From Rhodococcus rhodochrous (lineage in GTDB: Bacteria; Actinomycetota; Actinomycetes; Mycobacteriales; Mycobacteriaceae): a stretch of DNA of 64,000 nt. Within the stretch, counting starts at the first letter, position 1; every line of letters begins with the position of its first letter. The translations under genes and the position numbers were made by a program. Where the stretch lies: assembly GCF_900187265.1 (NCBI RefSeq), contig NZ_LT906450.1, positions 2,781,444 through 2,845,443 on the forward strand, written 5' to 3'. Under the pieces are notes generated by a model. The model made no database searches and had not been told where the DNA came from. It saw nothing but the letters and a program-made list of their open reading frames with translations. This document shows positions 38,633-52,410 of this stretch, piece by piece.

Positions 38633-38829
38633 ACTGCGGCAGACGGCGAGCGCTTCGCGCAGACCGGGCCGATGTCGATTGTCTCCCGCGTAGCCCTTGT
38701 CCGTATAGAGCGCCCTTGTCCGTATAGAGCCGGTCGTCGCGGACTCCGGCCTTTGCGGGCTCCGTGGTGCGGTTGCAGATCTTGGCCCGTGGTGCTGCAT
38801 CGGGAATAGCCGATCAGGATTCCGTCCAT
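38633..38829 (-). pseudogene. Serine-recombinase (Tn3-type resolvase) fragment, frameshifted
   Basis: On the minus strand a resolvase N-terminus is recognisable in pieces: MDGILIGYSRCSTTGQDLQ, then in the next frame TTEPAKAGVRDDRLYTDKG, then in a third frame ALYTDKGYAGDNRHRPGLR and EALAVCRS. A frameshift after QDLQ and a 19-bp tandem duplication break the frame. The rest of the catalytic and DNA-binding domains is missing, because the fragment ends where the SDR stop codon begins. It is a non-functional relic of a transposon. Confidence 0.75.
38693..38730. repeat. 19-bp tandem duplication inside the resolvase relic
   Basis: GCCCTTGTCCGTATAGAGC is present twice in direct succession (38693-38711 and 38712-38730). 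Because 19 is not a multiple of three, it shifts the resolvase reading frame. Confidence 0.9.
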
Positions 38830-39109
38830 GAGGCGACGAAAGTGCTGTTTGAGTCAGCTATTCGAGACCGACATGCAGGACGGTTAAACAGGACGGTCGG
38901 ACGGGCGTCTTCCCCAGGACGCGATCGAGTGCCGGGCCCCTTCGGGGTGTGCTGTTTGAGGATCGGTCCGCAGACTTGATCTTGTTCCGAAAACGAACGT
39001 ATATGAAACATCCACGGCGGAACCGAGCGATGTGATCTTCGGCGATAGGTGGCACGGTTCTGAGCGGTGAGAACGGCATGGTCCTCGGGGCGCAGCGGCG
39101 GGCAAATGA
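38830..39109. other. Gene-free accessory junction
   Basis: About 280 bp with no credible gene and lower GC than its flanks. It contains GTGCTGTTTGAG twice (38842-38853 and 38949-38960) and the imperfect long repeat listed separately. It may hold remnants of a resolution site and a transposon end upstream of the resolvase relic. Confidence 0.4.
38960..38998 (+). repeat. Imperfect ~38-bp repeat, copy 1
   Basis: GGATCGGTCCGC, four variable bases, then TTGATCTTGTT, two variable bases and GAAAACGA. The same pattern recurs in the same orientation at 48655-48692. The inner CGAAAACGAACGTA resembles the inner part of Tn3-family terminal repeats, which fits the adjacent resolvase relic. Confidence 0.65.
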
Positions 39110-40294
39110 TCAGATCCATCTCTCGTACCGGTCGGCGGGCATCAGCTTCGGGAAGAACTCCTTTCGGAGGTCGCGGATCAGCGCGATGTAGTTCCCGCCG
39201 TCGGTGCGTGCGGCAGTTTGAAGACTCTGGAATGTGCCCCGCAGCGGATCGAATGCAAATGATTCGGAGACATCTCGCACCGCGTACATCGCGATGACCG
39301 GCGCCGGAGCCGGACCGTTCTCAGGGATTGTGGTGTCGATGGTGGGGTCGTCCTGGAACGCCTGCCACAGCTGCTCAGGTTCGTCGCGGCCGAACGGGGG
39401 CGACAACGTCCGGTTGCCGTCGTCGAGCGCGTCGAGTGCCGGCGCGATCCAATCCCTGTCGGCGATGCCGGCGATGGTGAAGGCTCGTCGGACAGCCCAG
39501 ACGGTAATGCGCCGAAGTTTCGGCTCGCGAGCCCTCGCAATCGCGTCCGCAAGCGCGCGATCGACACCGGCGAGGTCGATCGCGTGGGGGCACCGGCTCA
39601 GTTTCTCGGACGGCGGTCTCCCACCCCATCGGATGGCCTCCTGCTTCGCCGCCTCGGCCATCTTCTCGTAGCCGACCCTCAAGTAGATGGTTGCGTCGGC
39701 GGCCGGATCGGGGTCCCACCACTGGCGGGTCGGATGTTCGACGATCTCCTGCTCCCAGGCACTGTCCGTCTTGTGAAGCCGAACCATCCCGTGGGGCCGA
39801 TTCACCCGCCATACCTGCACCAGGTACTCCTCGGTGGGCTCGTCGACCTCGAGAGCCCAGTGCGTGTCCCGACCGCGACCGGACACCCGGAACCGATACG
39901 ACCCGCGGCCGATAGGCAGCCGACCGAAGTCGGGTAGCTTCTCCCCACTCAGGGTGATCACGGCGAATGCCTTGGTCACCTTCACCGTGGCTTCCTCGAC
40001 GACCTCCCACCCGCATCGGTCAGCGTGGAAATCCGGCTCGTTGTCACAGACCTCGACGGTCAACGACACCGGACCGTAGGCGATGCCGGTCAGGACCGTG
40101 ACGAAGTTCTGCCCGATCTCGATGACGCTGCCGGTCTCCGACGGTTCGTAGGTTTCCGCGGTCACAGATCCCAGGACGAACTGGTGATGATCCGCGACGG
40201 CCACGCCGGATTGGTTCATCAAGGCACGGTAGCGCACGAGGACTGCATCCTCTCCGACGCCAAACGGGTGAGCAGCCGCCCTGATCGGTTCCAT
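39110..40294 (-). CDS. Conserved-type hypothetical protein, two domains
   Basis: A 394-residue protein that I do not recognise. Residues about 30-185 appear to form a beta-rich domain (IEIGQNFVTVLTGIAYGPVSLTVEV; YRFRVSGRGRDTHWALEVDEP). After WWDPDPAADATIYLRVGYEKM comes a helical C-terminal half with an unusual cysteine and histidine in SRCPHAIDLAG. ATG 40294 is 18 bp after the previous gene. ATG 40219 has a TACCGT six bases upstream and could be a leaderless start. GC at third positions is lower than in core genes. Confidence 0.6.
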   Translation of the reverse strand: MEPIRAAAHPFGVGEDAVLVRYRALMNQSGVAVADHHQFVLGSVTAETYEPSETGSVIEIGQNFVTVLTGIAYGPVSLTVEVCDNEPDFHADRCGWEVVEEATVKVTKAFAVITLSGEKLPDFGRLPIGRGSYRFRVSGRGRDTHWALEVDEPTEEYLVQVWRVNRPHGMVRLHKTDSAWEQEIVEHPTRQWWDPDPAADATIYLRVGYEKMAEAAKQEAIRWGGRPPSEKLSRCPHAIDLAGVDRALADAIARAREPKLRRITVWAVRRAFTIAGIADRDWIAPALDALDDGNRTLSPPFGRDEPEQLWQAFQDDPTIDTTIPENGPAPAPVIAMYAVRDVSESFAFDPLRGTFQSLQTAARTDGGNYIALIRDLRKEFFPKLMPADRYERWI

Positions 40295-40742: not shown

Positions 40743-41780
40743 ATGGATACCGCCGAGCGCGTGCTGGCCGCACCACGAGGCCGGCGGTTCGCCGCCCACC
40801 TGGGCTATGCGTGCAGCACCGACGAGCGAGCAAGCAACTATCTCGAGCCCCTCACCCAGGCAGATGCCCTCGACGTCCTGGCCGCCGTCGATGCCGAAAC
40901 CGTCGCGCAGTTGTCCGAGCTCGACGTGCTCGAAGCATTGGGCCGGGCAACGGATTTCGCGCGGTACTGGCAACCCCCGGACGAAGAGGACCTCTGGTTC
41001 GCCGATCCGGCTATCGTCGCGGCCCTGCACCCGATCGTCGAGGCGGTGCTGACCTGCGACCATGCCCGGTGGTGGAGCACACCGATGGATCCGACATGCC
41101 AACGAGCAGTGCAGAAACGCTACACCTCCACCGACGAATGGTCCGAGACGTTCTGGAACAACCAGGACCACGACGCCGACCTGCCCGCCTGGCGACGGCA
41201 TGTCCTCGCCGACGAAGAGCGGTTCCGGCGCTTTCTGAACGCCGAACCCGAACGACAGATCAGCGGCGAGTGGTGGTCGACCCCGGTCCCGAGCAGAGTA
41301 CGGGTCACCAGCCGCGCACGGCAGAATCTGGGTGCGGTGGAATTGCTGCTCGCCGAAGACGACAACTCCGACGGTCGCCACGCCCGGGTGTGGCCGGTGC
41401 ATGTCGACGACGCGGCGCGGGTCTACGAGATCACCGGCCCCGCCGCCTGGACCCAGCTCGTCGACGCGTATCCCCTGGCAGTGGCGGCGTCGCGGCGCTC
41501 CGACTGGTACGAGACCACCGGCAAGTATCTGCAGTGGTACCTGCCGGACTGGGCAGCGGTGAGCGCCGACCACGACGCGGTGCACCTGACCGTGCTCGGG
41601 TATCTCACCACCCCCGGGCTGGCGCTCCCGCTGACCACGCACACCGGGGCCAGTGTCCTGGCCGGATGGGATCCCGACGCCACCTTCTGGCTCGACCCGC
41701 GCCTGGTTAAAGTCGACGGCCGACCCGTCGAATGGCACCGCACAGGCGACACACCCTGGATGCCGAGATCAGCAACATGA
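40743..41780 (+). CDS. Hypothetical protein
   Basis: A 345-residue unrecognised soluble protein. It is rich in Trp (for example RYWQPPDEEDLWF; SGEWWSTPVPSRVR; YLQWYLPDWAAV) and Asp/Glu, without signal peptide or membrane segment. The C-terminal third (DHDAVHLTVLGYLTTPGLAL, then GASVLAGWDPDATFWLD) looks like a barrel-type domain. Two separate WWSTP motifs may mark an internal duplication. It begins the accessory segment's plus-strand side and converges with the coupled pair at 41.9-43.2 kb. Confidence 0.75.
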   Translation: MDTAERVLAAPRGRRFAAHLGYACSTDERASNYLEPLTQADALDVLAAVDAETVAQLSELDVLEALGRATDFARYWQPPDEEDLWFADPAIVAALHPIVEAVLTCDHARWWSTPMDPTCQRAVQKRYTSTDEWSETFWNNQDHDADLPAWRRHVLADEERFRRFLNAEPERQISGEWWSTPVPSRVRVTSRARQNLGAVELLLAEDDNSDGRHARVWPVHVDDAARVYEITGPAAWTQLVDAYPLAVAASRRSDWYETTGKYLQWYLPDWAAVSADHDAVHLTVLGYLTTPGLALPLTTHTGASVLAGWDPDATFWLDPRLVKVDGRPVEWHRTGDTPWMPRSAT

Positions 41781-41895: not shown

Positions 41896-42588
41896 TCAAT
41901 GCTTTTCGAGTCCGTCCCGAGCGGAGAACACGGACTCGGTCGCCCCTCCTTCACCGAGCCTGGTCAGGTTCCCTCGAGCGGACGCGAACCGGCCCGGTGT
42001 TGGGCTACTCCCAGTACAGCGGCTCACGTGCAGGATCGTCGAGTACAGCGTCGATTCGCTGGTCGCCACAATGCGGTCGATTGCGTCCGCACTGGCACCG
42101 ATCGTGGCGAAGTGCGGATCGACATCGTTGGTGATGCACCAGGCACGGTCCGCCGGCCAGATGAAGGCGGGATCAGGCGAGTCGCCATACGGCCACCGCG
42201 CAGGGTCGTCGCTATTCCAGTGTGCGTAGTCCGCCAGCGTGCCGCGGAACAACCAGTAGACGCGATTGGGGATCGCAAAGTTGGGCGCCGAGTTGATGGT
42301 GGTGGTGCCCCACCCTTCCCACAGGCAGAAGTAGCACTCGTCTGGTGTGGTCGTGTATCGAGACAGAACCTCCAGTGCCACGGCGATCTGATCCTTCTCC
42401 GACAATGCGTTCTGATCGAAATCGACGTCACTCGTCTTCTGTCCAGGAAAGCTCGGATCGGGGATGAACCTCACCCGCGCATAGCGCGGATATCCGACTG
42501 GGCCGCGACCTGCCAATCGGTACCACGGAAGTCTCTGCTCGACGAGCCAATCGGCGGCCGATGCATCGTGGCACAGTTCGAAGCTCAC
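41896..42588 (-). CDS. Conserved actinobacterial hypothetical protein
   Basis: A 230-residue protein of a family I have seen only as hypotheticals. Typical segments are CYFCLWEGWG, NRVYWLFRGTLADY and PDPAFIWPADRAWCITNDVDPHFATIGAS followed by AIDRIVA. It is cytosolic, with no signal. The GTG start at 42588 overlaps the stop of the upstream gene by four bases (GTGA), so the two are coupled. It lies downstream of the LGFP-nuclease gene on the same strand, a possible place for an immunity or accessory function. Confidence 0.75.
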   Translation of the reverse strand: MSFELCHDASAADWLVEQRLPWYRLAGRGPVGYPRYARVRFIPDPSFPGQKTSDVDFDQNALSEKDQIAVALEVLSRYTTTPDECYFCLWEGWGTTTINSAPNFAIPNRVYWLFRGTLADYAHWNSDDPARWPYGDSPDPAFIWPADRAWCITNDVDPHFATIGASADAIDRIVATSESTLYSTILHVSRCTGSSPTPGRFASARGNLTRLGEGGATESVFSARDGLEKH

Positions 42589-43211
42589 CCGGCGATTATT
42601 CGAAGTTCGACGAGAACACCGACTTCCTGGGTCCATGGCCCCTCCGGTGGTGGAATCAGATTGATGCAACTCCCCGAGCTCTCGATGATCGGCGACTCGG
42701 GCACCGTGCCCGTCGCGAAGCCGTTCTGCCCCTCCCGGACAGGCCCGAAGGTATGGATCCCGCCCCCGCTGTAGTGGCCGTTCGCATCCGGCCAGCTCGT
42801 ATGGCTCACCAGCCGGCGACCGGTCACCGCGGCGCGCACACGGGCCTGTTCCGGCACCAGCGCCGGGAAGTCGGCCGACAACGAGCCGGTCACCTGCACG
42901 GTGCCGCGATACAGCGTGCTCGAGTGCAGAGCTGCACCCCAGCCCCGGCCGTGCAGAAGCAGCGAATAGGTCCCCGGATGCGTCCGCCCGGCCGGATCGA
43001 CCCATTCCCGGGACAGTCGTCCGTCACCGCGCACCTCCACTCGGGCGGTGAGGTCGTTGCACATCTCGGGAAGAATCCCCGGCTCCAGCTCGACGAAGGT
43101 CAAGGCGTACTCCACACGGTCGCCGACCTGCGGAAACTTCACCATTCCGTCGAGAATCAGGTCTGCCGGGACAAGCACTCGCAGACTCTCCGTAGTGATC
43201 TCGTGTGTCAT
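42585..43211 (-). CDS. Hypothetical protein coupled to the downstream gene
   Basis: A 208-residue unrecognised protein, mainly beta-rich (VGDRVEYALTFVELEPGI; DLTARVEVRGDGR; GTYSLLLHGRGWGAAL; YRGTVQVTGSL). It has no signal peptide. The N-terminus MTHEITTESLRVLVPADLIL starts after GAGGTGG at ATG 43211. It shares an operon-like arrangement with the 230-residue gene. Nothing in it suggests an enzyme. Confidence 0.75.
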   Translation of the reverse strand: MTHEITTESLRVLVPADLILDGMVKFPQVGDRVEYALTFVELEPGILPEMCNDLTARVEVRGDGRLSREWVDPAGRTHPGTYSLLLHGRGWGAALHSSTLYRGTVQVTGSLSADFPALVPEQARVRAAVTGRRLVSHTSWPDANGHYSGGGIHTFGPVREGQNGFATGTVPESPIIESSGSCINLIPPPEGPWTQEVGVLVELRIIAG

Positions 43212-43447
43212 CGCCACCTCGTCGACGCTCGCAGAAGCCGGTCGTTCCGGCAACGCTCGCCAGGCCTCTTCTGGTTTCAATTCCACAGGACACGGGGAGT
43301 GCCGTCCGCATCCGTCCCGACGAAGTTACCGGTCGGATTTCGCCGGAAGCGATGAACTTCGACCGTTCACCACCATGCATATCTCACGACCACATGCACA
43401 CGCGGCATCCTCCGAAAGCGGATGCCGCGTGGCAGAGCATGGTCTAC
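43212..43447. other. Intergenic region
   Basis: 236 bp between two minus-strand genes. I see no gene, no clear hairpin and no repeat. Confidence 0.3.
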
Positions 43448-43795
43448 CTATCGAGGAGGCTCACTTTCGCGTTCAGTGACTGTGATCGATCCGCCACCCG
43501 CTACTGGTGGCATGTCGTTCGGATTCTGTCCGGCCGCTGCATCCCGGGCGAACTCTTCGTATGTTTCGGGTTCGCCATCGTCGATGAACGGGTCTTCTAC
43601 CGATGGATCATAGTCTTCCTCAAGCAAAGGCTCGTCGCTCGGAGCAGGTTCTTCCGAACTGGTCATGGTAGTAGTTCCTTCCTGACTGGCCGAGTCGTTG
43701 GTGCCGGTGGCGACACGATTCGCCACCACCGCACCACCTGCGATCGCGGTAACGACGAGTACAGCGCTCACCAGATATGCAGCTTCCCGCCTCAC
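43448..43795 (-). CDS. Small membrane-anchored acidic protein sharing a motif with the LGFP nuclease
   Basis: A 115-residue protein with an N-terminal membrane helix (AAYLVSAVLVVTAIAGGAVVAN). A Ser/Thr/Glu linker follows, then a very acidic segment (EEDYDPSVEDPFIDDGEPE), and a C-terminal motif ETYEEFARDAAAGQNPND with GGGSITV. The LGFP nuclease just upstream carries NTYAEFAADAAVGIDPSD with GGGTLLV at residues 491-518. GTG start after AGGGAGAGA, 39 bases beyond the nuclease stop, so probably the same operon. It is a candidate partner, for example immunity or anchoring. The function is not known. Confidence 0.75.
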   Translation of the reverse strand: MRREAAYLVSAVLVVTAIAGGAVVANRVATGTNDSASQEGTTTMTSSEEPAPSDEPLLEEDYDPSVEDPFIDDGEPETYEEFARDAAAGQNPNDMPPVAGGGSITVTERESEPPR

Positions 43796-43834: not shown

Positions 43835-46480
43835 TTATGGGGCAGGAGGGAGGGAGCCGCCGGAGACGGAAACCCAGAAGGGATCTTGATTGATCACTCG
43901 GTTGACTCCATAGAAGGCACCCAGATAGCTGCCTGCTCGACTGTTCTGAGGCCCGTCAATCATGCAGACACTGAAGCCCGTCGGACCCGTTCCTGCAGAC
44001 AGGTCCGGTATGTGACATTCAGGGTTGAAGGTTCGACCCGTGCCGCCAGAACTGTATCCACCTTCTGTGGTCGACGCGAAAGGATATTCATCGCATGTGC
44101 GACCTGACACGGCTCTGTCCCTGCTGATATCGCCAGACCGAGGACATGCTGCCTGCCGATTGATGTCCCTTGTCGCATTGTTTGCCTGGCGATGCAACGG
44201 CTGAGAGGGGGAACCTCCCGGAAGTCCGCTTTCAAGTGCCTTCTGAATGTGTCCGGCCGCCTCCGGTACGGGGTTGGCGTGGGATGTCGGGGAGAGCCAG
44301 AACTGCGGAGTGTAGGAGGACCATACACATCCTTGTTTCAACCCTGCGCTGTTACGCATTGTCTTATCGCATCGGAATCCGTGAGTCCCCACGCTGAGAT
44401 CTGTGGTGCTCGACAAATTGGGGGAATCATTGCCGAAACTGATTTTCAACCCGAAGTTTCGAGCCTCGATTGCGTTGTCGGCGAGGCTCGTCTCATTCCA
44501 AGTCACGACTAGCACAATCGTCATGCCGGAGTGAACCACCGTGCCTGGAGCAGGACCTTCAACTGAGAAAGAGCCGCTGTTATAACCGTCGTTGTAACCC
44601 TCGTACTGAAGGGTCGGGGTTCCGGCGGTAGTCCAGCCTTTCCCGAATTCGAGTCGGACTTCTTGCTTCATTATTCCAGTTCGGTGACTGGATAGCACTC
44701 CCGTTTTGATGGTGACAGCGGCAAAACGATCTGGACCGCCAGAAATATTTTTCCACCACGCAAAGGTATCTTTTACTGCACAAGCGTTCTTTCGGTTACC
44801 GCGCCACGTTCCATCCCACGTACCAGTAGTGCACCATGTGGGAATGAAGTATCCCCCGGTATCGGGTCCCTCGATGTTGGGGTCTTCGGGGTCGGGGGTC
44901 GCCGGACCCGATCCCGGGTTATTCACCAGAAGTGTTCCACCTCCGCTCGTGACTGGATCGCTGGGATCTATGCCAACGGCGGCATCAGCAGCGAATTCTG
45001 CATAGGTGTTCGGAGTTCCATCGGAGATGATGAAGCCGATATCACCTTGGTCATCGCCCGTCATGGTGTCCGCGATATCGGTCAGCCACCCCATCGTGCC
45101 CCACTGGAAATCCTGTTCCTCACCGGATCCAGGACGTGACCTGGCATCACTGATCGGGTACCCGTACGCCCCTGACTCGTTACCCGACTGTTCCCATTTA
45201 GATAGGAGAGAGCCTGTTACGGGCCATGCGCCTGTGCTCGGGTGCCAGTAGATGACGCCGCGTTCGAAGCGGCTCATCCGGCCCTGACCGTCAGGCAGAT
45301 CCATGGGGTCTTGGATGGGATAGCCGAGCAGGCTTCCCGGCTCGTGCGCGCCGACGGTGTTCCACTTGTCACGGATCAGACCGTTGCGGATCGCGGAACC
45401 GATCGCATTTTGGAACGCCACATAGATCGCGCCACGCTGGAACTCCTGACGCCGCCCCACCCCGTCGGCGTGCACGATCTCATCCGTGGTGGGGTATCCG
45501 AGCATGCCGGCAGCCGCCTCGTACTGAAGGATGCCCCAGCGGTTGAGGAAGCTGTTGACCACCGGATGTGCCCCGGTGTCGGGGTGCCAGTAGATCGGGC
45601 CGTTGAGGAACGTGACTCGTTGACCGATCCCGTCGGGGTTGGTGATGTTGCCGCTGGTCGGGTACGTCAGGAAGCTCGCCGGTCCGCCGAGGGAGTTGTA
45701 CTTGTCGCGGATCGCGCCGCACACCTGGAACGGGGACGGCCAGTAGGTTTGGCAGGTCACCGCCGCGATCGACATACGCGAGAGGGTGGAGCGCTCCTGT
45801 GCCTCCATCATCTCGGCCTTGTCGGCGTCTTCCTTGGTGAACGGCGCCGGGATCTCTTCTCGATCGGAGCGCATCTGCCCCGGTACGAGGGTGGCGTTCG
45901 GGTTCTCGGTCGGCGCCCAGTCCAGGTCCGGTTCGGCGGTCTTGGACGACAATTCCGGATCATCGGGGGCGATGGGCTGATCGGCGGCCGGTGCGGCCGG
46001 GATCATCTCCGCCGGCACCGGTGCGAGGGTGTCCTCGGTCGGCGGGGCGGGTTCCGGCTCTTGCGCGGCTGTCACCGGCGGTGAGGCCGGTTCCGGGACC
46101 GTTTCCGATGCCGGGGTCGGGGTGACCGGTTCGGGCGCTGCCGGGGTGGTTACGCACTCTGCCGGGGCCACCGGGGGAGTGGTGGTCGTGGTGGTGGGCG
46201 GCGGAGTCGTCGTGGTGGCCGGGGGTGTGGTGGTCGGTACCGCGCACGGATCGACCACCGTGGTGGTTTCGGCTGGGGTGTCGAGCGGCACCAGGTCCGG
46301 GGACGTTGTTGCCGGTGTGGACTGTGTCGTGGTGGGGACGGCCGGTGTCGTCTCGATCGGCTGGGCCAGGGCTGCCGACCCTCCGACGGCAACCATCAGC
46401 ACCGTGGTGCTCGCGAGCAGGCACCGGCTCATCCATCTGTGCCGGGACATGACGGAGCCCCGCTGGGGGTGCGAATCCAT
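43835..46480 (-). CDS. Secreted LGFP-repeat protein with C-terminal NucA/NucB nuclease domain
   Basis: A large 881-residue exported protein. The signal peptide is residues 1-39, ending ALA. A Thr/Pro/Ala-rich stalk follows (about 41-210). Next are several LGFP-type repeats (about 243-460: YWPSPFQVCGAIRDKYNSLG, then GYPTTDEI, GYPIQDP and GYPISDA), which in mycolata bind the cell envelope. A beta-rich cysteine-containing module covers about 545-735. The C-terminal domain (about 773-870) has the NucA/NucB signature CDEYPFAST (796-804) and QNSRAGSYLGAFYGVNRVI. The overall plan is that of a surface-displayed polymorphic nuclease toxin. The 3' third has lower GC than the 5' part. ATG 46480 chosen; ATG 46450 possible. 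Confidence 0.87.
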   Translation of the reverse strand: MDSHPQRGSVMSRHRWMSRCLLASTTVLMVAVGGSAALAQPIETTPAVPTTTQSTPATTSPDLVPLDTPAETTTVVDPCAVPTTTPPATTTTPPPTTTTTTPPVAPAECVTTPAAPEPVTPTPASETVPEPASPPVTAAQEPEPAPPTEDTLAPVPAEMIPAAPAADQPIAPDDPELSSKTAEPDLDWAPTENPNATLVPGQMRSDREEIPAPFTKEDADKAEMMEAQERSTLSRMSIAAVTCQTYWPSPFQVCGAIRDKYNSLGGPASFLTYPTSGNITNPDGIGQRVTFLNGPIYWHPDTGAHPVVNSFLNRWGILQYEAAAGMLGYPTTDEIVHADGVGRRQEFQRGAIYVAFQNAIGSAIRNGLIRDKWNTVGAHEPGSLLGYPIQDPMDLPDGQGRMSRFERGVIYWHPSTGAWPVTGSLLSKWEQSGNESGAYGYPISDARSRPGSGEEQDFQWGTMGWLTDIADTMTGDDQGDIGFIISDGTPNTYAEFAADAAVGIDPSDPVTSGGGTLLVNNPGSGPATPDPEDPNIEGPDTGGYFIPTWCTTGTWDGTWRGNRKNACAVKDTFAWWKNISGGPDRFAAVTIKTGVLSSHRTGIMKQEVRLEFGKGWTTAGTPTLQYEGYNDGYNSGSFSVEGPAPGTVVHSGMTIVLVVTWNETSLADNAIEARNFGLKISFGNDSPNLSSTTDLSVGTHGFRCDKTMRNSAGLKQGCVWSSYTPQFWLSPTSHANPVPEAAGHIQKALESGLPGGSPSQPLHRQANNATRDINRQAACPRSGDISRDRAVSGRTCDEYPFASTTEGGYSSGGTGRTFNPECHIPDLSAGTGPTGFSVCMIDGPQNSRAGSYLGAFYGVNRVINQDPFWVSVSGGSLPPAP

Positions 46481-46736
46481 CTGTGACCTGTTTCTTCTCG
46501 GGTGGATAGGTACAGCGGTGGCGCCATCGCTTCTTAGCAACTTAAACGGTTTCTCAATAATCACAAATGCACCAGATAACACTTGCGTAACAAATACCGA
46601 TCGACCTGTTTTGTTTTCAGAAAGCGTGCGAAAACCGACATTCGGTGTTAGGCGGTCAAGATCATCTTCGGCTCGAGCGGTGGTTCCCCGGGGAACAGCG
46701 ACCCCCGAAAAGAGGTGAAGGAGCGGGTATATACAC
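46481..46736. promoter_or_regulatory. AT-rich divergent regulatory region between two LGFP genes
   Basis: 256 bp separating the divergent LGFP nuclease and the small LGFP protein. The stretch 46535-46630 is strikingly AT-rich for this genome (for example AACTTAAACGGTTTCTCAAT and CAAATGCACCAGATAAC). It should contain both promoters, but I could not assign -10 elements confidently. Confidence 0.4.
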
Positions 46737-47063
46737 GTGCGCGACAAGGTGAGGTGGACGAGGCCACGAGGGCGGATGGCGACCGCAGTGGCCGCGGCGG
46801 GGCTGGTGGTCCTGGCCTTGACCGGTGGCGCAGTGGCCACCGCTGCGCCGGCCGAGGTGACAGCTGACTGCCAGATCTATTGGCCGTCGCCGTTCCAGGT
46901 GTGCGATCAGATCAAGGACCTGTACAACAGCCTCGGCGGAGCGGCGAGTCCGCTCGGCTTCCCGTCCTCGGCCGCGCAGGCGTACGGCACCGACGGACTC
47001 CGCCAGAGCTTCACCGGCGGGGCGATCGTCTGGACACCGTCGACCGGCGCCTACATCGAATAA
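46737..47063 (+). CDS. Small secreted single-LGFP-repeat protein
   Basis: A 108-residue exported protein. The signal peptide (MATAVAAAGLVVLALTGGAV, cleavage near ATAAPA) is followed by one LGFP unit: DCQIYWPSPFQVCDQIKDLY, NSLGGAASPLGFPSS, and GGAIVWTPSTGAYIE. This matches the first repeat of the divergent LGFP nuclease nearly motif for motif, so the two probably share an ancestor or a ligand. It lacks any effector domain. GTG 46737, GTG 46749 or ATG 46776 could be the start. Confidence 0.8.
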   Translation: MRDKVRWTRPRGRMATAVAAAGLVVLALTGGAVATAAPAEVTADCQIYWPSPFQVCDQIKDLYNSLGGAASPLGFPSSAAQAYGTDGLRQSFTGGAIVWTPSTGAYIE

Positions 47064-47228
47064 ACCGTCCTGCCGGCGGGTGAGCGACCGAAGATCAGAA
47101 ACGGAATCTTCCGGACCTGAACGATCCGGGTCGGCTCACCCGCGGCGGCGTCGGGGTCACTGGCAACCGGCAGCAGCGCGGTCTGCGCCGTGTCGGCGAG
47201 CCGGAACCACGCAGGCCCACAGGAACTG
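47064..47228. other. Intergenic region between convergent genes
   Basis: 165 bp between the LGFP protein and the TetR gene. No clear hairpin or gene is seen. Confidence 0.3.
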
Positions 47229-47888
47229 TCAGGTCGAGGTCTGTGGACGATTCCAGCGGGCGTGCCGGATGCGCTCGCATTTACGGCGACGGGCAGGAAC
47301 CATGATGCCCGGAAGCAGGAACCGCCACATCTGATCGATCCGCAGTTCGAGATCGACCCGTCGATCGAGCACGTTCGAGACCATCTGCACCCCGGTGAAC
47401 GCCGAAATCACGAACCGGGCCAGTTCCGGCGCATCGACCGTGCCGGGCAGATCGCCTTCGGCGATGGCGGTCTCGGCGAGCTGCCGGCACGCCTCGATCC
47501 AGTCCCGGTAGGGACCGGCCGGATCCAGCGGTCCTCCTCCGCCGCTGAATTCGAGGGTCAGCCGGATCCCGGCCCGGACGATCGGGTCCTGCACGATCTG
47601 TCGGCCCATCTCGTGGCAGAGCATCACGATCTGCTCGAGTGCCGAGGCACCGGTTGCGGCGATCGCCTCGACCGCGGCGAGGGAGATCTCGTGTTGTCGC
47701 TGCACGACAGCGTCGGCGAGTTCCTCCTTCGATTTGAAGTGGAAGTACAAGGCACCTTTGCTCAGGCCCGTGCCCGCCTCGATGATGTCGCCGAGGGAGG
47801 CGCCCTCGAAGCCCCGCTGGTCGAAGGCGGCCGCGGCCGCTGCCACGAGCTGGTGCCGCGTCGCCACTGCCCGAGCCTGCTTGACCAA
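47229..47888 (-). CDS. TetR-family regulator, gamma-butyrolactone receptor type (paralogue 1)
   Basis: A 219-residue ScbR/ArpA-like regulator. The N-terminal helix-turn-helix is FEGASLGDIIEAGTGLSKGALYFHFKSKEELADAV, the signature of butyrolactone receptors. The ligand domain (VMLCHEMGRQI; FTGVQMVSNVLDRRVDL) is closely similar to the second receptor at 50171-50827, often identical over 10-20 residues. The start is probably TTG 47888 after GAGAAGGG, because the paralogue starts at the equivalent residue with GTG. It lies beside the LGFP genes rather than beside gblA. Confidence 0.87.
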   Translation of the reverse strand: MVKQARAVATRHQLVAAAAAAFDQRGFEGASLGDIIEAGTGLSKGALYFHFKSKEELADAVVQRQHEISLAAVEAIAATGASALEQIVMLCHEMGRQIVQDPIVRAGIRLTLEFSGGGGPLDPAGPYRDWIEACRQLAETAIAEGDLPGTVDAPELARFVISAFTGVQMVSNVLDRRVDLELRIDQMWRFLLPGIMVPARRRKCERIRHARWNRPQTST

Positions 47889-48303
47889 TCCCGTGCCCTT
47901 CTCCCGAACTCTCGAAGCCCCGGCGTGAGGGCCCGCCCTGACGAATCCCGACCTGCGCCCGTGCCGGGGAAGACCGTAGCAGTCGGCCGGAATCCGGCCT
48001 GGTCGCCAGCAGTGTGACCGGTTCCCGCCGTGCGGGGGATGGGGGCACCATCGGGAACCGACACTCGGCAGGGATTCGGTCGACCGACTCGGTGACGACC
48101 GGGTTGTCGTCGTCGACGTCGGCACTCGCCGAACACCGACACCCCCGCCGGACCGGCCTGGAGGGCAGGTCCTCGCCAGCGGAGACGATCTGTCCTTTTG
48201 GTCGATCACCCGGCTCACCGCGCAGTGGCAGCCGCCCATGCAATCGCGTCCGGGGAGCGGGACCCGACCCTCCCCTGGAACGGACCCTCAAACCCGACAC
48301 GCG
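47889..48303. other. Intergenic region
   Basis: About 415 bp. It presumably holds the promoter of the TetR gene (a minus-strand TACGGT occurs near 47972). I see no credible protein in either strand. Confidence 0.3.
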
Positions 48304-48498
48304 GTGACCGGCACCCTCGTCGATTCCTCGGGCGCACACGTGCAGTTCCACAGCGCCGACGACCTCGACCTCGAGGTGCACGACGAGGGCCGGCAGGTGG
48401 TGTTCGCGCTGACCGCGACCGGCTCCAGAGGCGATATCGATCCGGCGCCGCTGACCGTGCGCGGGGTGATCACCTGCGAGGCGGTCACCGAGCACTGA
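48304..48498 (+). CDS. Possible small protein or gene fragment
   Basis: A 64-residue frame (VTGTLVDSSGAHVQFHSADD and LEVHDEGRQVVFALTATGSR) with beta-strand periodicity and GC-rich third positions. It looks like the end of a larger domain. There is no clear ribosome site. It overlaps a candidate fragment on the opposite strand by a few bases. I do not recognise it. Confidence 0.35.
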   Translation: MTGTLVDSSGAHVQFHSADDLDLEVHDEGRQVVFALTATGSRGDIDPAPLTVRGVITCEAVTEH

Positions 48499-48640
48499 GC
48501 GGCACCGGACCATGTGTGTCCTGAAGGTGGCATAGCAGCAGCCCCACCCCGACCGCTGTAGCGCACACGCCGACGAGCGCGGTGACCAAAGCCGGGACCA
48601 GATGGTAGGTGCCGGTCTCGACCAGCGGCAGCCAAACCTT
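48485..48640 (-). pseudogene. Truncated C-terminus of a membrane protein
   Basis: On the minus strand an open frame reads a hydrophobic helix (VPALVTALVGVCATAVGVGL) preceded by RKVWLPLVETGTYH and ending in HGPVPLSAR at a TGA. It has no start and stops resembling protein about 15 bp before the imperfect repeat copy at 48655. It may be the tail of a membrane protein cut by a rearrangement. Confidence 0.3.
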
Positions 48641-49135
48641 CCTGTCTCGTTGATGGATCGGTCCGCGAAATTGATCTTGTTTTGAAAACGACCCTTACAT
48701 CGACAACCACGTATGTGGGGTGAGCGTGCACACGGTCGCGGTCTCGAATAGTCTGTGCGGTGCCCCCATGCTCCCTACGTGAGGGCACAGTTCGCGCGCT
48801 TTCCCCCCGGCGCGCGGACGAAGGTCCGTCGGCGCCGTATGCCGACGGAACCTCGCAGGCCAGTGATGGTGAGTACCCCTCGTAAATCTCGCCGTCACTG
48901 GCCTGTCGGCAACTCCCGACACAACACCCGCCGATGCGTCCGGACACTCCCGATATCCACACGTATCGGCGCCATCCCAGACAAACAATACCATTCGACC
49001 GGTATTGCCCGTTGCGCTCGAGGGTACCGCAGGTGCAACGCACAGGGAACGCCTCACCCACACATACCCGCTGCACGGTCGATGCGACCGGAAAACTCGC
49101 GGAACACGATCTACTACGTGACTCCAGGAGCTCCC
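48499..49135. other. Gene-poor stretch
   Basis: About 640 bp with no convincing complete gene. It contains the possible membrane-protein fragment at its left edge, repeat copy 2 at 48655-48692, and short frames without codon bias. Confidence 0.35.
48655..48692 (+). repeat. Imperfect ~38-bp repeat, copy 2
   Basis: GGATCGGTCCGC, four variable bases, TTGATCTTGTT, two variable bases and GAAAACGA, in the same orientation as 38960-38998. The copies differ at about five or six positions plus one indel just upstream. They bracket about 9.7 kb of accessory genes. Confidence 0.65.
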
Positions 49136-50128
49136 TCACGGCGAGGTGGGACTCGCCGGAAGGGCATTCGGTGAGGGCTCCACCGCAGTCTCGGCCCAGA
49201 TTCGGTCGCTGACGTAGTGATGATCGTGCCCGATCAGATCGACGTGACGTGCGGACAGTCCCCGCTCTCGGCCTATCCGCAGTGCCTGCTCGTAGTCGAC
49301 GGAGTCGGACGGTGGTGTGAGCAGACCATGTGCGGTGGCGGTGTGGACGAGTTCGCGGACGGTCACCGCAGTCGGATGGGCGAGATGACGCATGCCCCCA
49401 CGCAACGCCGCGGGCAGGGCGCGCGCCGCGAGTGCGGCGGTGAGCCGGCCGACGTCGCCGCGTGAAATCACCGATTGACGTGCGGCGCCGTCGTCGATCC
49501 ACACCCCGAGAGTCGAGACGATGTGCGCCAACCCGGGCAGGAACCACCGGTCGCCGGGCCCGTGCACGAATCCGGGTCGCAGCACCAGACCGCCGTGCCT
49601 GCGCACATGGTTTTCGGCAGTCAGACGACTCGCGCTCAGCGCAGTGACCGGAGCCGGAGCAAGCTCACCCTCGACGACGTTGCGATGCGGTCCGGGGCCG
49701 TAGACGCCGATCGTGCTCAGGTACACGATGTGCTCGATACCGTGGTCGGCAGCGGCCGTCACCAGATTCTCGGTACCGAGAGCGTTGACCTCCTCACATC
49801 GGGCTGCGTCGGAGCCCGTATAAGACGCTGCATGCACAATCGCGTCGACACCGGCCAGCGCGTCGGTCAGAGCCTTCACATCGAGTAGATCTGCCGCCGC
49901 GACCAGCATTGGCGGTCTCGAGGATGTGAGCGGACGGCGCGCTATCGACGTGCATGCCACCCCCATGTTCAGCAGGGCGTCGAGCACCGCCCCACCGAGG
50001 AAACCGCTCGAACCCACGACCGCGACGCGCCATGCAGGTGTCGACGGCGCCGATCCGTGGTCCGCGATGTCGTTCCGGTCCGGTGGTACGGTTCGCCTCG
50101 GGGGAGGCAGAGGGTCGAGGTTCTCCAC
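49136..50128 (-). CDS. gblE: NAD-dependent epimerase/dehydratase, gamma-butyrolactone cluster (GblE-like)
   Basis: A 330-residue extended SDR. The cofactor motif is VVGSSGFLGGAVLDAL (about 36-51). DAIVHAASYTG, YLSTIGVYGPG and LRPGFVHGPGD follow. The usual YxxxK is altered: SASRLTAENHV sits where Tyr-Lys would be expected, so its catalysis may differ. It is divergent from gblR with 42 bp between the starts and next to gblA, the arrangement described for butyrolactone clusters in Rhodococcus. It probably modifies the signal precursor. GTG start after GAAAGG. Confidence 0.8.
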   Translation of the reverse strand: MENLDPLPPPRRTVPPDRNDIADHGSAPSTPAWRVAVVGSSGFLGGAVLDALLNMGVACTSIARRPLTSSRPPMLVAAADLLDVKALTDALAGVDAIVHAASYTGSDAARCEEVNALGTENLVTAAADHGIEHIVYLSTIGVYGPGPHRNVVEGELAPAPVTALSASRLTAENHVRRHGGLVLRPGFVHGPGDRWFLPGLAHIVSTLGVWIDDGAARQSVISRGDVGRLTAALAARALPAALRGGMRHLAHPTAVTVRELVHTATAHGLLTPPSDSVDYEQALRIGRERGLSARHVDLIGHDHHYVSDRIWAETAVEPSPNALPASPTSP

Positions 50129-50170
50129 GACTCGCCTTTCGGTAGATCATCGAGTAAAAGGACACGGGGT

Positions 50171-50827
50171 GTGGCCAAACAAGCTCGGGCAGTAGCGACC
50201 CGGCAGCAGATCGTGGCAGCAGCGGCCGCCACCTTCGATCGGCTGGGATTCGACGGTGCCAGCCTCGGGGCGATCGTCGAGGCGAGCAGCGGGCTCACCA
50301 AAGGTGCCCTGTACTTCCACTTCAAATCGAAGGACGAACTCGCACACGCCGTCGTCGAACAGCAACACGCCATCTCCATCGCCGCGGTCGCCGCGATCGC
50401 CGCCACACAGGCCTCGGCGCTCGAGCAGATCGTGATGCTCTGCCACGAAATGGGGCGACAGATCGTCGAGGATCCGATCGTCCGGGCCGGCATCCGGTTG
50501 ACCCTCGAATTCAGTGCGGGCGCCGAACCGGACCAGCCGGGACCGTACCAGGACTGGATCGAAGCCTGCCGGCACCTCGTCGAGACCGCGATCGCCGAGG
50601 GCGACCTGCTCCCTACGATCGATCCCTCCGAGCTGGCGCGGTTTGTGATCTCGGCGTTCACCGGGGTTCAGATGGTCTCGAATGTCCTCGATCGACGCAT
50701 CGATCTCGAACACCGCATCGACCAGATGCTGCAGTTCCTGCTCAACGGCATCCTGACCTCCGACTGCCGCCCCGACAGCGACAAGATCCGTCGGGCTCGC
50801 TGGAGCGAGACACACCAGCCGGCCTGA
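50171..50827 (+). CDS. gblR: TetR-family gamma-butyrolactone receptor GblR
   Basis: A 218-residue ScbR-type repressor: KQARAVATRQQIVAAAAATF at the N-terminus, then GASLGAIVEASSGLTKGALYFHFKSKDEL, and a ligand domain ending IDQMLQFLLNGILTS. It is placed between gblE (divergent) and gblA (convergent, six bases apart), so it is the cognate receptor. GTG start with AAAGGA upstream. A close paralogue lies 3 kb away at 47229-47888. Confidence 0.88.
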   Translation: MAKQARAVATRQQIVAAAAATFDRLGFDGASLGAIVEASSGLTKGALYFHFKSKDELAHAVVEQQHAISIAAVAAIAATQASALEQIVMLCHEMGRQIVEDPIVRAGIRLTLEFSAGAEPDQPGPYQDWIEACRHLVETAIAEGDLLPTIDPSELARFVISAFTGVQMVSNVLDRRIDLEHRIDQMLQFLLNGILTSDCRPDSDKIRRARWSETHQPA

Positions 50828-50834
50828 CACGCCG

Positions 50835-51800
50835 CTATCCGCCGGACCCGGGCCCCGGCGCACGAGATGCGCCGGCGGGCCACCTCAGCGTCGCCGTAGC
50901 CATCGCCATTCCACGCTGCTCGAGCACGACATGCGCACCCGCAGGCTCTTTCTCGACACCCGAGACCACCATCTCCGCCGGAACGTCGAGTTCGACGAAT
51001 CGATGAAATTGCGCGCTTATCGACACCGGATCCGCCTCCGGGGCCCCGCATTCCGCTCGTACCGCCTGCCGGGCAGCCTCGAGAACGAGCATGCCCGGCA
51101 GGTGATCGGACGGATGGTCGAACAACACCGGATGCGACAGATCCGGCAACACCCGCCAGCGACCCGGCCGCGCCGTGGCACCGACCACCACATCCCCGAC
51201 CACCGGCACCCCCACCGCGGTCGGATCGACCGGCGTTCGCCCTGGTACAGGGCCCAGCGTCCGCGGCCCACCGGCACCCCAACGAACGGTGTCGTACTCC
51301 TCGGCCGTCAGAACGGCAGTTCGGCCTCTGCCGGACCCCACACGGCGGCCGGCGATGGTGAATTCGAGTGCCGCGCTCAAAGCGGTGACCTGCGAGCCAC
51401 GACGTCGCACATCCGATACCACCGCGGTGATGGTGACCTCCGCGGCGCCGGCACCGATCACCAGACGTTCCAGCTCTGCGGTGATCTCGATCGTCTGCAT
51501 CACGAACCGCTGACCGAGCGAGACCCGATACCGGGTGTGCGCCAGATAGATCACGCATTGGCGCAGCGTCTCTGCGAGCAGCATCGGGTCGTAGCGACCG
51601 GCCCGGCTGCGATAGAAACCGTGCAGACGCGGCCATTGCGCGCCCAGGACGAATCGGTCCGGTCCGGGACCGCGAACGCAATCGGTGAGGAAGACTTCGG
51701 ATATCGCCTGGCGGTGGACATGCCTGCGCGGCACCGTCGACTCGAACGACAACACCGCGAGATCATCCTCCAAACCGGACGAACCGTTCACTACCTCCAT
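50835..51800 (-). CDS. gblA: A-factor-type gamma-butyrolactone synthase (AfsA/ScbA family)
   Basis: A 321-residue AfsA-family protein, predicted to condense a beta-keto acyl chain with dihydroxyacetone phosphate, the key step to butyrolactone signals. Two AfsA hotdog repeats are visible. The first has VPRRHVHRQAISEVFLTD and MLLAETLRQCVIYLAH; the second has HPVLFDHPSDHLPGMLVLEA and ARQAV. Start ATG 51800 after AAGGTGA. The leader carries a CCGCAAG/CTTGCGG dyad. Confidence 0.88.
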   Translation of the reverse strand: MEVVNGSSGLEDDLAVLSFESTVPRRHVHRQAISEVFLTDCVRGPGPDRFVLGAQWPRLHGFYRSRAGRYDPMLLAETLRQCVIYLAHTRYRVSLGQRFVMQTIEITAELERLVIGAGAAEVTITAVVSDVRRRGSQVTALSAALEFTIAGRRVGSGRGRTAVLTAEEYDTVRWGAGGPRTLGPVPGRTPVDPTAVGVPVVGDVVVGATARPGRWRVLPDLSHPVLFDHPSDHLPGMLVLEAARQAVRAECGAPEADPVSISAQFHRFVELDVPAEMVVSGVEKEPAGAHVVLEQRGMAMATATLRWPAGASRAPGPGSGG

Positions 51801-51801
51801 A

Positions 51802-51821
51802 CCGCAAGTATCACCTTGCGG
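51802..51821. promoter_or_regulatory. Inverted repeat in the gblA leader
   Basis: CCGCAAG (51802-51808) and CTTGCGG (51815-51821) around six bases, immediately upstream of and overlapping the gblA ribosome site. It could be an operator or a translation-control hairpin. Confidence 0.4.
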
Positions 51822-52410
51822 GTGGGACGTGATCGCACCCCGGTCATCGAACGACCGGATGTCGATTGCAGGGCATATGTACAGCATTTTGCGCGCCCCA
51901 CAGAGATCCCGAACGGGACTGATGTCGGAGCAGGTGACATCGAACTGTGGTGCATCAGTGACCGGATGAAGTCCAGGCTCACCGTGGCAGAACATCCCGG
52001 AATAGTGCCGCTGACGGGGATGGCTACGGACTTTCCGTACAAGTAGTCCCTGGATCATCCGACACGGATTCGCCGGAGTGAGGGGCCATTGCGACAGGAG
52101 CACCTGGTTCCTACACGTACCTGACCTCAACCTCACTGGTCCGGGGCACTTTCGAGTGTCCATCCAGCACGGTGCCGACCGACATGAAACGTGGAAACCG
52201 ACACCAAATCGTGGAACCTACACAAACTGTAGGTTCCCGCCGGAGGTGTCAGTAGTGCGGCGCACGGGCCTGCGGCTTTCCAATTTCGTGTCAGTCAGGG
52301 ATTCTCACGATCTTGTCGGAATCCTCAGGCATCCCGGACGATGTTTCGGTCCTGTGCCCAAGCCGCGAGAACCGAATCGAAGAGTCTGCTGCCTCGAAGC
52401 CTGAGTTCTG
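51822..52410. other. Gene-free region upstream of gblA
   Basis: About 590 bp between the gblA leader and the ISL3 element, without a credible gene. It contains the palindrome at 52213-52237 and the near-repeat CGTGGAAACCGACACC / CGTGGAACCTACAC around 52188-52224. Confidence 0.4.
52213..52237. promoter_or_regulatory. Perfect palindrome, possible butyrolactone-receptor operator
   Basis: GGAACCTACA, five bases (CAAAC), then TGTAGGTTCC. The 25-bp size and symmetry resemble ScbR-type autoregulatory elements. A terminator is the alternative. It lies about 410 bp upstream of gblA. Confidence 0.4.

Follow-up and report, generated by a model that had tools for sequence, protein, structure and literature searches.

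An LGFP-repeat protein of Rhodococcus rhodochrous with a NucB-type DNase tip, a probable member of a polymorphic toxin family exported by mycolic-acid actinobacteria

Introduction

Polymorphic toxin systems, which the locus described here resembles, combine a conserved N-terminus with exchangeable C-terminal toxins and downstream immunity genes, and the passages of the 2012 survey drawn on here also include heterogeneous immunity arrays and, in some systems, wall-binding adhesion domains (PMC3482391). LGFP is absent from the first 300,000 of the 357,715 characters of that survey, and those passages mention neither a carrier with LGFP repeats nor an immunity protein resembling a linker, of which the present locus has the former and a candidate for the latter (PMC3482391). 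The Tox-NucA family of the same passages has an HNH/EndoVII fold with GH, N, N, and E motifs, whereas the protein described here matches PF14040 and has an Asp-Glu...Asn pattern; the two are set apart by the listed motifs alone (PMC3482391). The umbrella toxins of Streptomyces are antibacterial proteins that actinobacteria secrete and that carry polymorphic toxin domains, as described in excerpts of PMC11062931. The carrier of the present locus is a single chain with LGFP repeats. Umbrella toxins, in contrast, are multi-protein particles.

LGFP repeats have been proposed as an anchor in the producer's own wall for PS1 of Corynebacterium (PMC3314691, in part) and suggested as a specific wall-binding module in lysins of Mycobacteriales phages, being common in Rhodococcus phages (PMC8223927, in part). 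Such endolysins join LGFP, as the presumed wall-binding module, to an effector domain (excerpts of PMC3314691, PMC9671378, and PMC8223927); here, the LGFP repeats belong instead to a protein that bacteria secrete, tipped by a nuclease or another domain. NucB and NucA of Bacillus (PF14040) share with our protein the nuclease domain and the four catalytic residues probed by mutation. In the present case, however, the nuclease is the C-terminal tip of a carrier of some 750 residues and comes with an additional module containing cysteines and with a membrane protein linked to the tip.

We analyzed a 64,000-nucleotide stretch of the R. rhodochrous genome, termed the window, in which an earlier note had read one gene as a candidate surface-displayed polymorphic toxin with LGFP repeats and a NucA/NucB nuclease. 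Literature searches, which covered few subscription papers, returned no paper on LGFP-carried toxins among the matches listed, and a family of LGFP-carried swappable tips, most likely toxic, in Rhodococcus and its relatives looks like a previously unnoticed one.

Results

Architecture of the carrier and its nuclease domain

The gene and its surroundings comprise the following features, in window coordinates.

43835-46480, minus strand: LGFP-NucA/NucB carrier gene, an open frame of 881 residues; the true start may lie some codons inside
46364-46480, minus strand: signal peptide region with cleavage near AALAQP, read by eye from the sequence
45560-45955, minus strand: conserved carrier N-terminus (TENPNATLVPGQMRSDREE...ADKAE) and first LGFP part, which served as a 132-residue query
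45090-45755 (limits approximate), minus strand: LGFP repeat array by Pfam
45170-45328, 45347-45502, and 45515-45670, minus strand: the three single LGFP repeats located
45212-45247, minus strand: exchange junction, where DNA similarity to other loci stops in 12 of 15 compared
44936-45028, minus strand: linker segment ISDGTPNTYAEFAADAAVGIDPSDPVTSGGG, with likeness to the downstream candidate immunity protein
44279-44833 (approximate), minus strand: cysteine-containing module accompanying NucA/NucB, from alignments
43871-44203, minus strand: NucA/NucB DNase domain with intact active site, from Pfam and alignments
43448-43795, minus strand: ImmA (our label), candidate immunity gene, 115 residues
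42585-43286, minus strand: 233-residue open reading frame within the array
41896-42656 (limits approximate), minus strand: relative of the gene behind the L067 and L119 carriers
40743-41780, plus strand: open reading frame with a relative adjoining an orphan ImmA at L238
39110-40294, minus strand: ImmB (our label), about 3.5 kb from the nuclease gene
38636-39146, minus strand: stretch with a broken serine-recombinase-like frame, common to plasmid pDF01, where it lies past that plasmid's own toxin cassette
46737-47063, plus strand: divergent 108-residue single-LGFP protein, conserved beside several carriers
47229-52163: gamma-butyrolactone signalling-like cluster with two ScbR-type TetR genes, an oxidoreductase gene, and ScbA/AfsA

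A Pfam scan of the 881-residue product located five LGFP stretches (E 4e-54), in agreement with the repeats that had been proposed. The signal peptide and the Thr/Pro stalk were recognized by reading the sequence rather than with a predictor, and a Sec-type signal peptide is the export feature read for this carrier. Its start codon is uncertain, since annotation of the pDF01 relative begins at a later Met. NCBIfam provided nothing useful for this protein or for ten further proteins scanned.

Residues 760-870 matched DNase_NucA_NucB (PF14040) with E 7.4e-10 and 39.7 bits, above the cut-off of 23.8, and this gene was the sole PF14040 match of its genome. The cysteine-containing module that the earlier note had placed ahead of the nuclease stood, with the addition that residues ∼550-735 align with other NucA/NucB proteins and share their cysteines. 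Among solved structures, a profile of 16 such modules matched nucleases of three distinct sequences, 6ejs (E 0.0027), 5omt (NucB, E 0.0038), and 9fj7 (E 0.02). Mutants of NucB in His53, Asp93, Glu94, and Asn117 are inactive, according to the portion of the NucB study used here (PMC5758888). In profile alignments to the solved chains these positions correspond to residues 744, 797, 798, and 846, respectively, after a constant shift of 32 was applied to the NucB chain numbers; of the two alignments printed, that to 6ejs alone covers the His. Asp and Glu were invariant in alignments of both 16 and 25 rows, so the catalytic pair is retained as had been supposed; Asn was invariant in the 25-row alignment and conserved in at least 90% of the 16-row alignment, and His reached at least 90% in both. 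At the level of sequence comparison, the assignment of the C-terminus as a NucA/NucB (NucB-type) DNase domain is confirmed.

Scanning the genome collection with this C-terminus alone gave 13 pattern stretches, none confirmed as a relative; the module alignment gave 354 stretches, of which 290 were relatives, and the 80 best of these 290 form the NucA/NucB loci used below. Phage records yielded no match to the C-terminus at E 1e-3.

One carrier bears many C-terminal tips

The 132-residue query found matches in 244 of the 301 genomes of the family at E 1e-5, many across the LGFP part only, and in 46 of the 301 at E 1e-20 or better. At E 1e-15, two of 394 sampled genomes of the class were matched, both belonging to the same family. 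Thirty-five plasmid records matched (Rhodococcus 24, Gordonia 5, Hoyosella 2, Nocardia 2, Corynebacterium 1, and Prescottella 1), 26 over at least 80% of the query, and 12 were typed as conjugative; all six are mycolic-acid-making genera. Among the plasmid matches listed, 25 of 30 were named "hypothetical protein" and five "LGFP repeat-containing protein".

From 55 carrier sequences we set aside eight short or cut copies and L121, which has no tip. The 46 carriers with a C-terminal part formed 17 groups without a BLASTP link between groups (six were singletons); the groups are defined by BLASTP alone, and distant kinship between them may remain. When one or two members per group, not all 46, were scanned, PF14040 and PF22322 (E 1.2e-16) were above the Pfam cut-off. 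Phospholip_A2_3 (28.2 of 29.4 bits), Peptidase_C92 (25.4 of 27), and, in one of the two group members scanned, Ribonuclease (23.3 of 24) fell just under it. Twelve of the 17 groups had no Pfam tip match in the one or two members scanned, among them g74, with a tail of just 73-91 residues. The DUF6973 domain of L120 and L072 is likely a toxin tip with a three-helix membrane partner. The modular variation that had been envisaged among LGFP relatives is borne out: their C-termini are not identical, and 17 groups share one carrier.

Several loci depart from the single-gene arrangement. At L096 (G047 C11 366000-385900), three carriers with three different tips (the unassigned g68, barnase-like, and NucA/NucB) lie within ∼13 kb. 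The carriers of L074, L113, and L115 stop soon after the LGFP array and are each followed by a related, apparently secreted product, so that carrier and effector may be separate chains there. L044, L042, and L049 have nuclease tips with just a partial LGFP part; they lie in the same DNA stretches as other carriers and are possible displaced cassettes.

Cassette exchange within the LGFP array

Rhodococcus sp. p52 carries a conjugative plasmid, pDF01, that shares 6.6 kb with positions 45228-51845 of the window at 94.3% identity. The identity stops inside the LGFP array at 45228, past which pDF01 has a different tip and a different downstream gene (small and cold-shock-like on reading of the sequence), and similarity resumes at 38636-39146. 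DNA similarity stopped between 45212 and 45247 in 12 of 15 loci (exceptions L087, L089, and L090), five of the 12 (L035, L100, L123, L124, and L227) also being NucA/NucB loci that have merely diverged there. On the other side of the carrier, the small single-LGFP gene (46737-47063) is conserved beside carriers with different tips, and the gamma-butyrolactone-like cluster adjoins the carrier both in the window and on pDF01, with 94% identity up to 51845. Density-controlled expression of the carrier via this ScbR/ScbA-type cluster would be a guess.

Downstream genes follow the tip

Neighbor statistics were computed for 44 of the 46 carriers, and for 43 in the upstream control. A homologous downstream product was present in 22 of 68 same-tip pairs versus 6 of 878 different-tip pairs among the 44 carriers, a count reached by none of 20,000 label shuffles; 46 of the 68 same-tip pairs have no common downstream gene. 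Five of the six different-tip exceptions involve ImmA, which also lies behind the other-tip carriers L058 and L060; in the sixth, L037 paired with L070, the shared product is probably a resolvase. Counting genes on both strands, the values were 23/68 versus 12/878 downstream and 3/66 versus 32/837 upstream; thus, downstream genes track the tip and upstream genes, including the small LGFP gene, do not. Products of 344-402 residues, several lipoprotein-like, lie behind papain-like tips at six of six loci, three-helix proteins lie behind g58 tips (3/3) and DUF6973 tips (2/2), and soluble proteins lie behind other tips; membrane stretches were assigned by a simple hydropathy count.

By the same count, ImmA has one transmembrane stretch, followed by an acidic exported tail. 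ImmA or a relative is the next gene behind the closest nucleases at all seven mycolate loci: the window, G257, G280, Skermania, Nocardia uniformis (toxin cut by a contig end), N. salmonicida (toxin part of just 140 residues), and a plasmid of Rhodococcus sp. NBC_00294, on which it is unannotated. None was found behind the more distant mycolate LGFP-NucA/NucB carriers L035, L039, L040, L048, and L156. Relatives of ImmA occur in 36 of the 301 family genomes, five of them under 27 bits; in 28 of these 36 genomes nothing matched PF14040. We fetched 10 orphan-ImmA loci from nine of these genomes and found no carrier in any of the ten; seven (L231, L232, L233, L234, L235, L237, and L238) contain genes related to those behind other carriers or to members of the window array. 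ImmA is a candidate membrane-anchored immunity protein of the window nuclease on these sequence grounds.

The linker of the toxin resembles ImmA

An ImmA-tail profile compared with 11,724 frames retrieved small membrane proteins and, amid the weaker ones, the linkers of four toxins (E 1.8e-7, 2e-4, 7e-4, and 0.0083, the last being the window linker). Alignments of linkers with ImmA were best in row and column for the own partner at five of five loci; no other of the 120 pairings reached the sum of the five cognate scores, and none of 2,000 letter shuffles attained any of them. Phmmer comparison of own pairs gave E 3.2e-9 for the window and 3.4e-11 for G280, with Skermania at background level (E 0.0099) and no match for G257. 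Among 362 downstream fragments, a match to the own toxin at E 0.01 was obtained for 12 of the 44 carriers; matches to other carriers at this threshold numbered 415, and many own matches are near chance. The clear ones were ImmA in the window and G280, together with L064, L116, and L068, whose fragments match stalk or LGFP sequence, not the tip. Linker mimicry is therefore seen for ImmA alone and is clear in two of the four loci tested. Gene conversion would account for the matching, as would adaptation of both segments to a common binding site; five pairs are few.

ImmB and an array of neighboring genes

The ImmB family lies directly downstream of 39 of the best 80 of 290 NucA/NucB genes, in many actinobacteria; ImmA was found at three of the same 80 loci, and neither gene at 38. 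Nine of the 80 also seeded the ImmB profile. Behind L040 and, weakly, L039, ImmB takes the place of ImmA. ComJ/Nin of Bacillus is an inhibitor of NucA; we considered ImmB as its homologue and did not assign it as such because Pfam gave no ComJ match among the ImmB-family proteins scanned.

Between ImmA and ImmB, the 233-residue frame (42585-43286) had no relative among the fetched loci at E 1e-4, and the frame at 41896-42656 is related to genes behind L067 and L119. The DNA from 39.1 to 42.6 kb is 96% identical to that on an R. pyridinivorans plasmid, where it lies 1 to 4 kb from two SMI1/KNR4 genes and no gene is annotated LGFP in 17.5 kb. The ImmB relative in R. pyridinivorans (L229 7014-8123) is annotated as a transposase, probably wrongly. 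By its gene content, this region of the window is a candidate array of spare immunity genes.

Full-length copies in genera without mycolic acids

The full LGFP-NucA/NucB protein, linker included, was present in five Streptomyces and one Umezawaea, genera that make no mycolic acids, with identities of 57-60% in the N part and 43-49% in the C part. ImmA was found in none of the six genomes, where one weak match (G303) was the linker itself, and no neighboring product was common to the six carriers within 2.5 kb on either side. Retention of the linker in these copies indicates that it is not merely a partner of ImmA. The six carriers form one clade, and the absence of ImmA is therefore one event; it fits LGFP docking on foreign mycolate cells, for which a single loss is weak evidence. 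Judged by sequence distribution, the non-mycolate copies would suit target docking by LGFP at least as well as own-wall anchoring.

Discussion

With a probability of roughly 0.8, we consider the window gene to be one allele within a family of polymorphic toxins that mycolic-acid actinobacteria export. This reading is backed by the architecture, the intact active site, tip exchange, the tip-linked downstream genes, and the orphan copies of these genes. The polymorphic toxin proposal of the earlier note is strongly supported by the comparative evidence of 17 tip groups, a cassette swap on a 94%-identical background, and tip-specific downstream genes. Wall binding, killing, target entry, and the mode of immunity are what we infer for it. 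The conserved stalk and LGFP repeats would bind a mycolate-type wall, and an exchangeable C-terminal cassette, made up of the last LGFP part, the tip, and the downstream immunity gene, would supply the killing activity, in the window that of a NucB-type DNase. The neighboring 115-residue membrane-anchored protein would shield the producer and its kin. As the preferred immunity mechanism, the pre-nuclease linker may act in cis as an inhibitory or docking segment, and ImmA may display a membrane-tethered copy of it in trans. Several observations count against this reading. ImmA is exported, and protection from a DNase would be needed in the cytoplasm unless the toxin is stopped at the membrane. 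Three of the five named tip domains lie under the Pfam cut-off, 12 of the 17 groups have no tip match, and 46 of the 68 same-tip pairs lack a common downstream gene. The window linker matches the ImmA profile weakly (E 0.0083), two of the four own pairs are at or under background by phmmer, and ImmA is missing behind five other mycolate carriers and from the six non-mycolate genomes.

Could LGFP dock on the target rather than on the producer? A diffusible, often plasmid-linked bacteriocin whose LGFP repeats bind the mycolic-acid wall of the target would be a version of the toxin-family reading, and we give it somewhat less than an even chance. The 35 plasmid records, with the conjugative types among them, agree with it, as do the ImmA-free copies of Streptomyces and Umezawaea and the wall-binding role suggested for LGFP in lysins of phages of this order (PMC8223927, in part); against it, the six non-mycolate copies are one clade and represent one event, and LGFP has been proposed as an own-wall anchor in PS1 (PMC3314691, in part). 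Another alternative, that a secreted or wall-bound DNase scavenges or turns over extracellular DNA, with the various tips serving as a useful set of surface enzymes and the downstream genes as helpers unrelated to them, appears improbable to us. NucB is an extracellular, biofilm-dispersing DNase (portion of PMC5758888), and shorter NucA/NucB proteins in which no LGFP is visible occur in the family (L052 and L053, judged by eye rather than by an LGFP scan), yet scavenging does not predict tip-specific downstream genes, nuclease-free orphan copies, or a cassette swap. Because linker sequence is shared, the 115-residue product might instead assist the nuclease as a partner in docking, folding, or release. 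The direct adjacency of ImmA also suits such a role, which we nevertheless regard as unlikely, given that 28 of the 36 genomes with ImmA relatives have no PF14040 match and that orphan copies sit among relatives of other carriers' downstream genes.

Within the toxin-family reading, a tentative and rather doubtful extension joins three proposals: an LGFP-delivered trafficking class specific to mycolic-acid envelopes, self-protection of a NucB-type toxin by mimicry, with ImmA as a membrane-tethered, allele-matched copy of the pre-nuclease segment, and Streptomyces without antidote as non-targets. The weapon would have been taken over by Streptomyces without the antidote because, having no LGFP-bound wall, they are not targets.

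If the toxin-family reading is true, rhodococci, gordoniae, nocardiae, and corynebacteria would have a common and diverse arsenal of wall-targeted protein weapons, largely unnamed. The carrier would offer a route for proteins that exploit the mycolate envelope, the family would supply as many as a dozen tips of unassigned kind, and an immunity protein that copies a segment of its toxin would represent a new logic of immunity.
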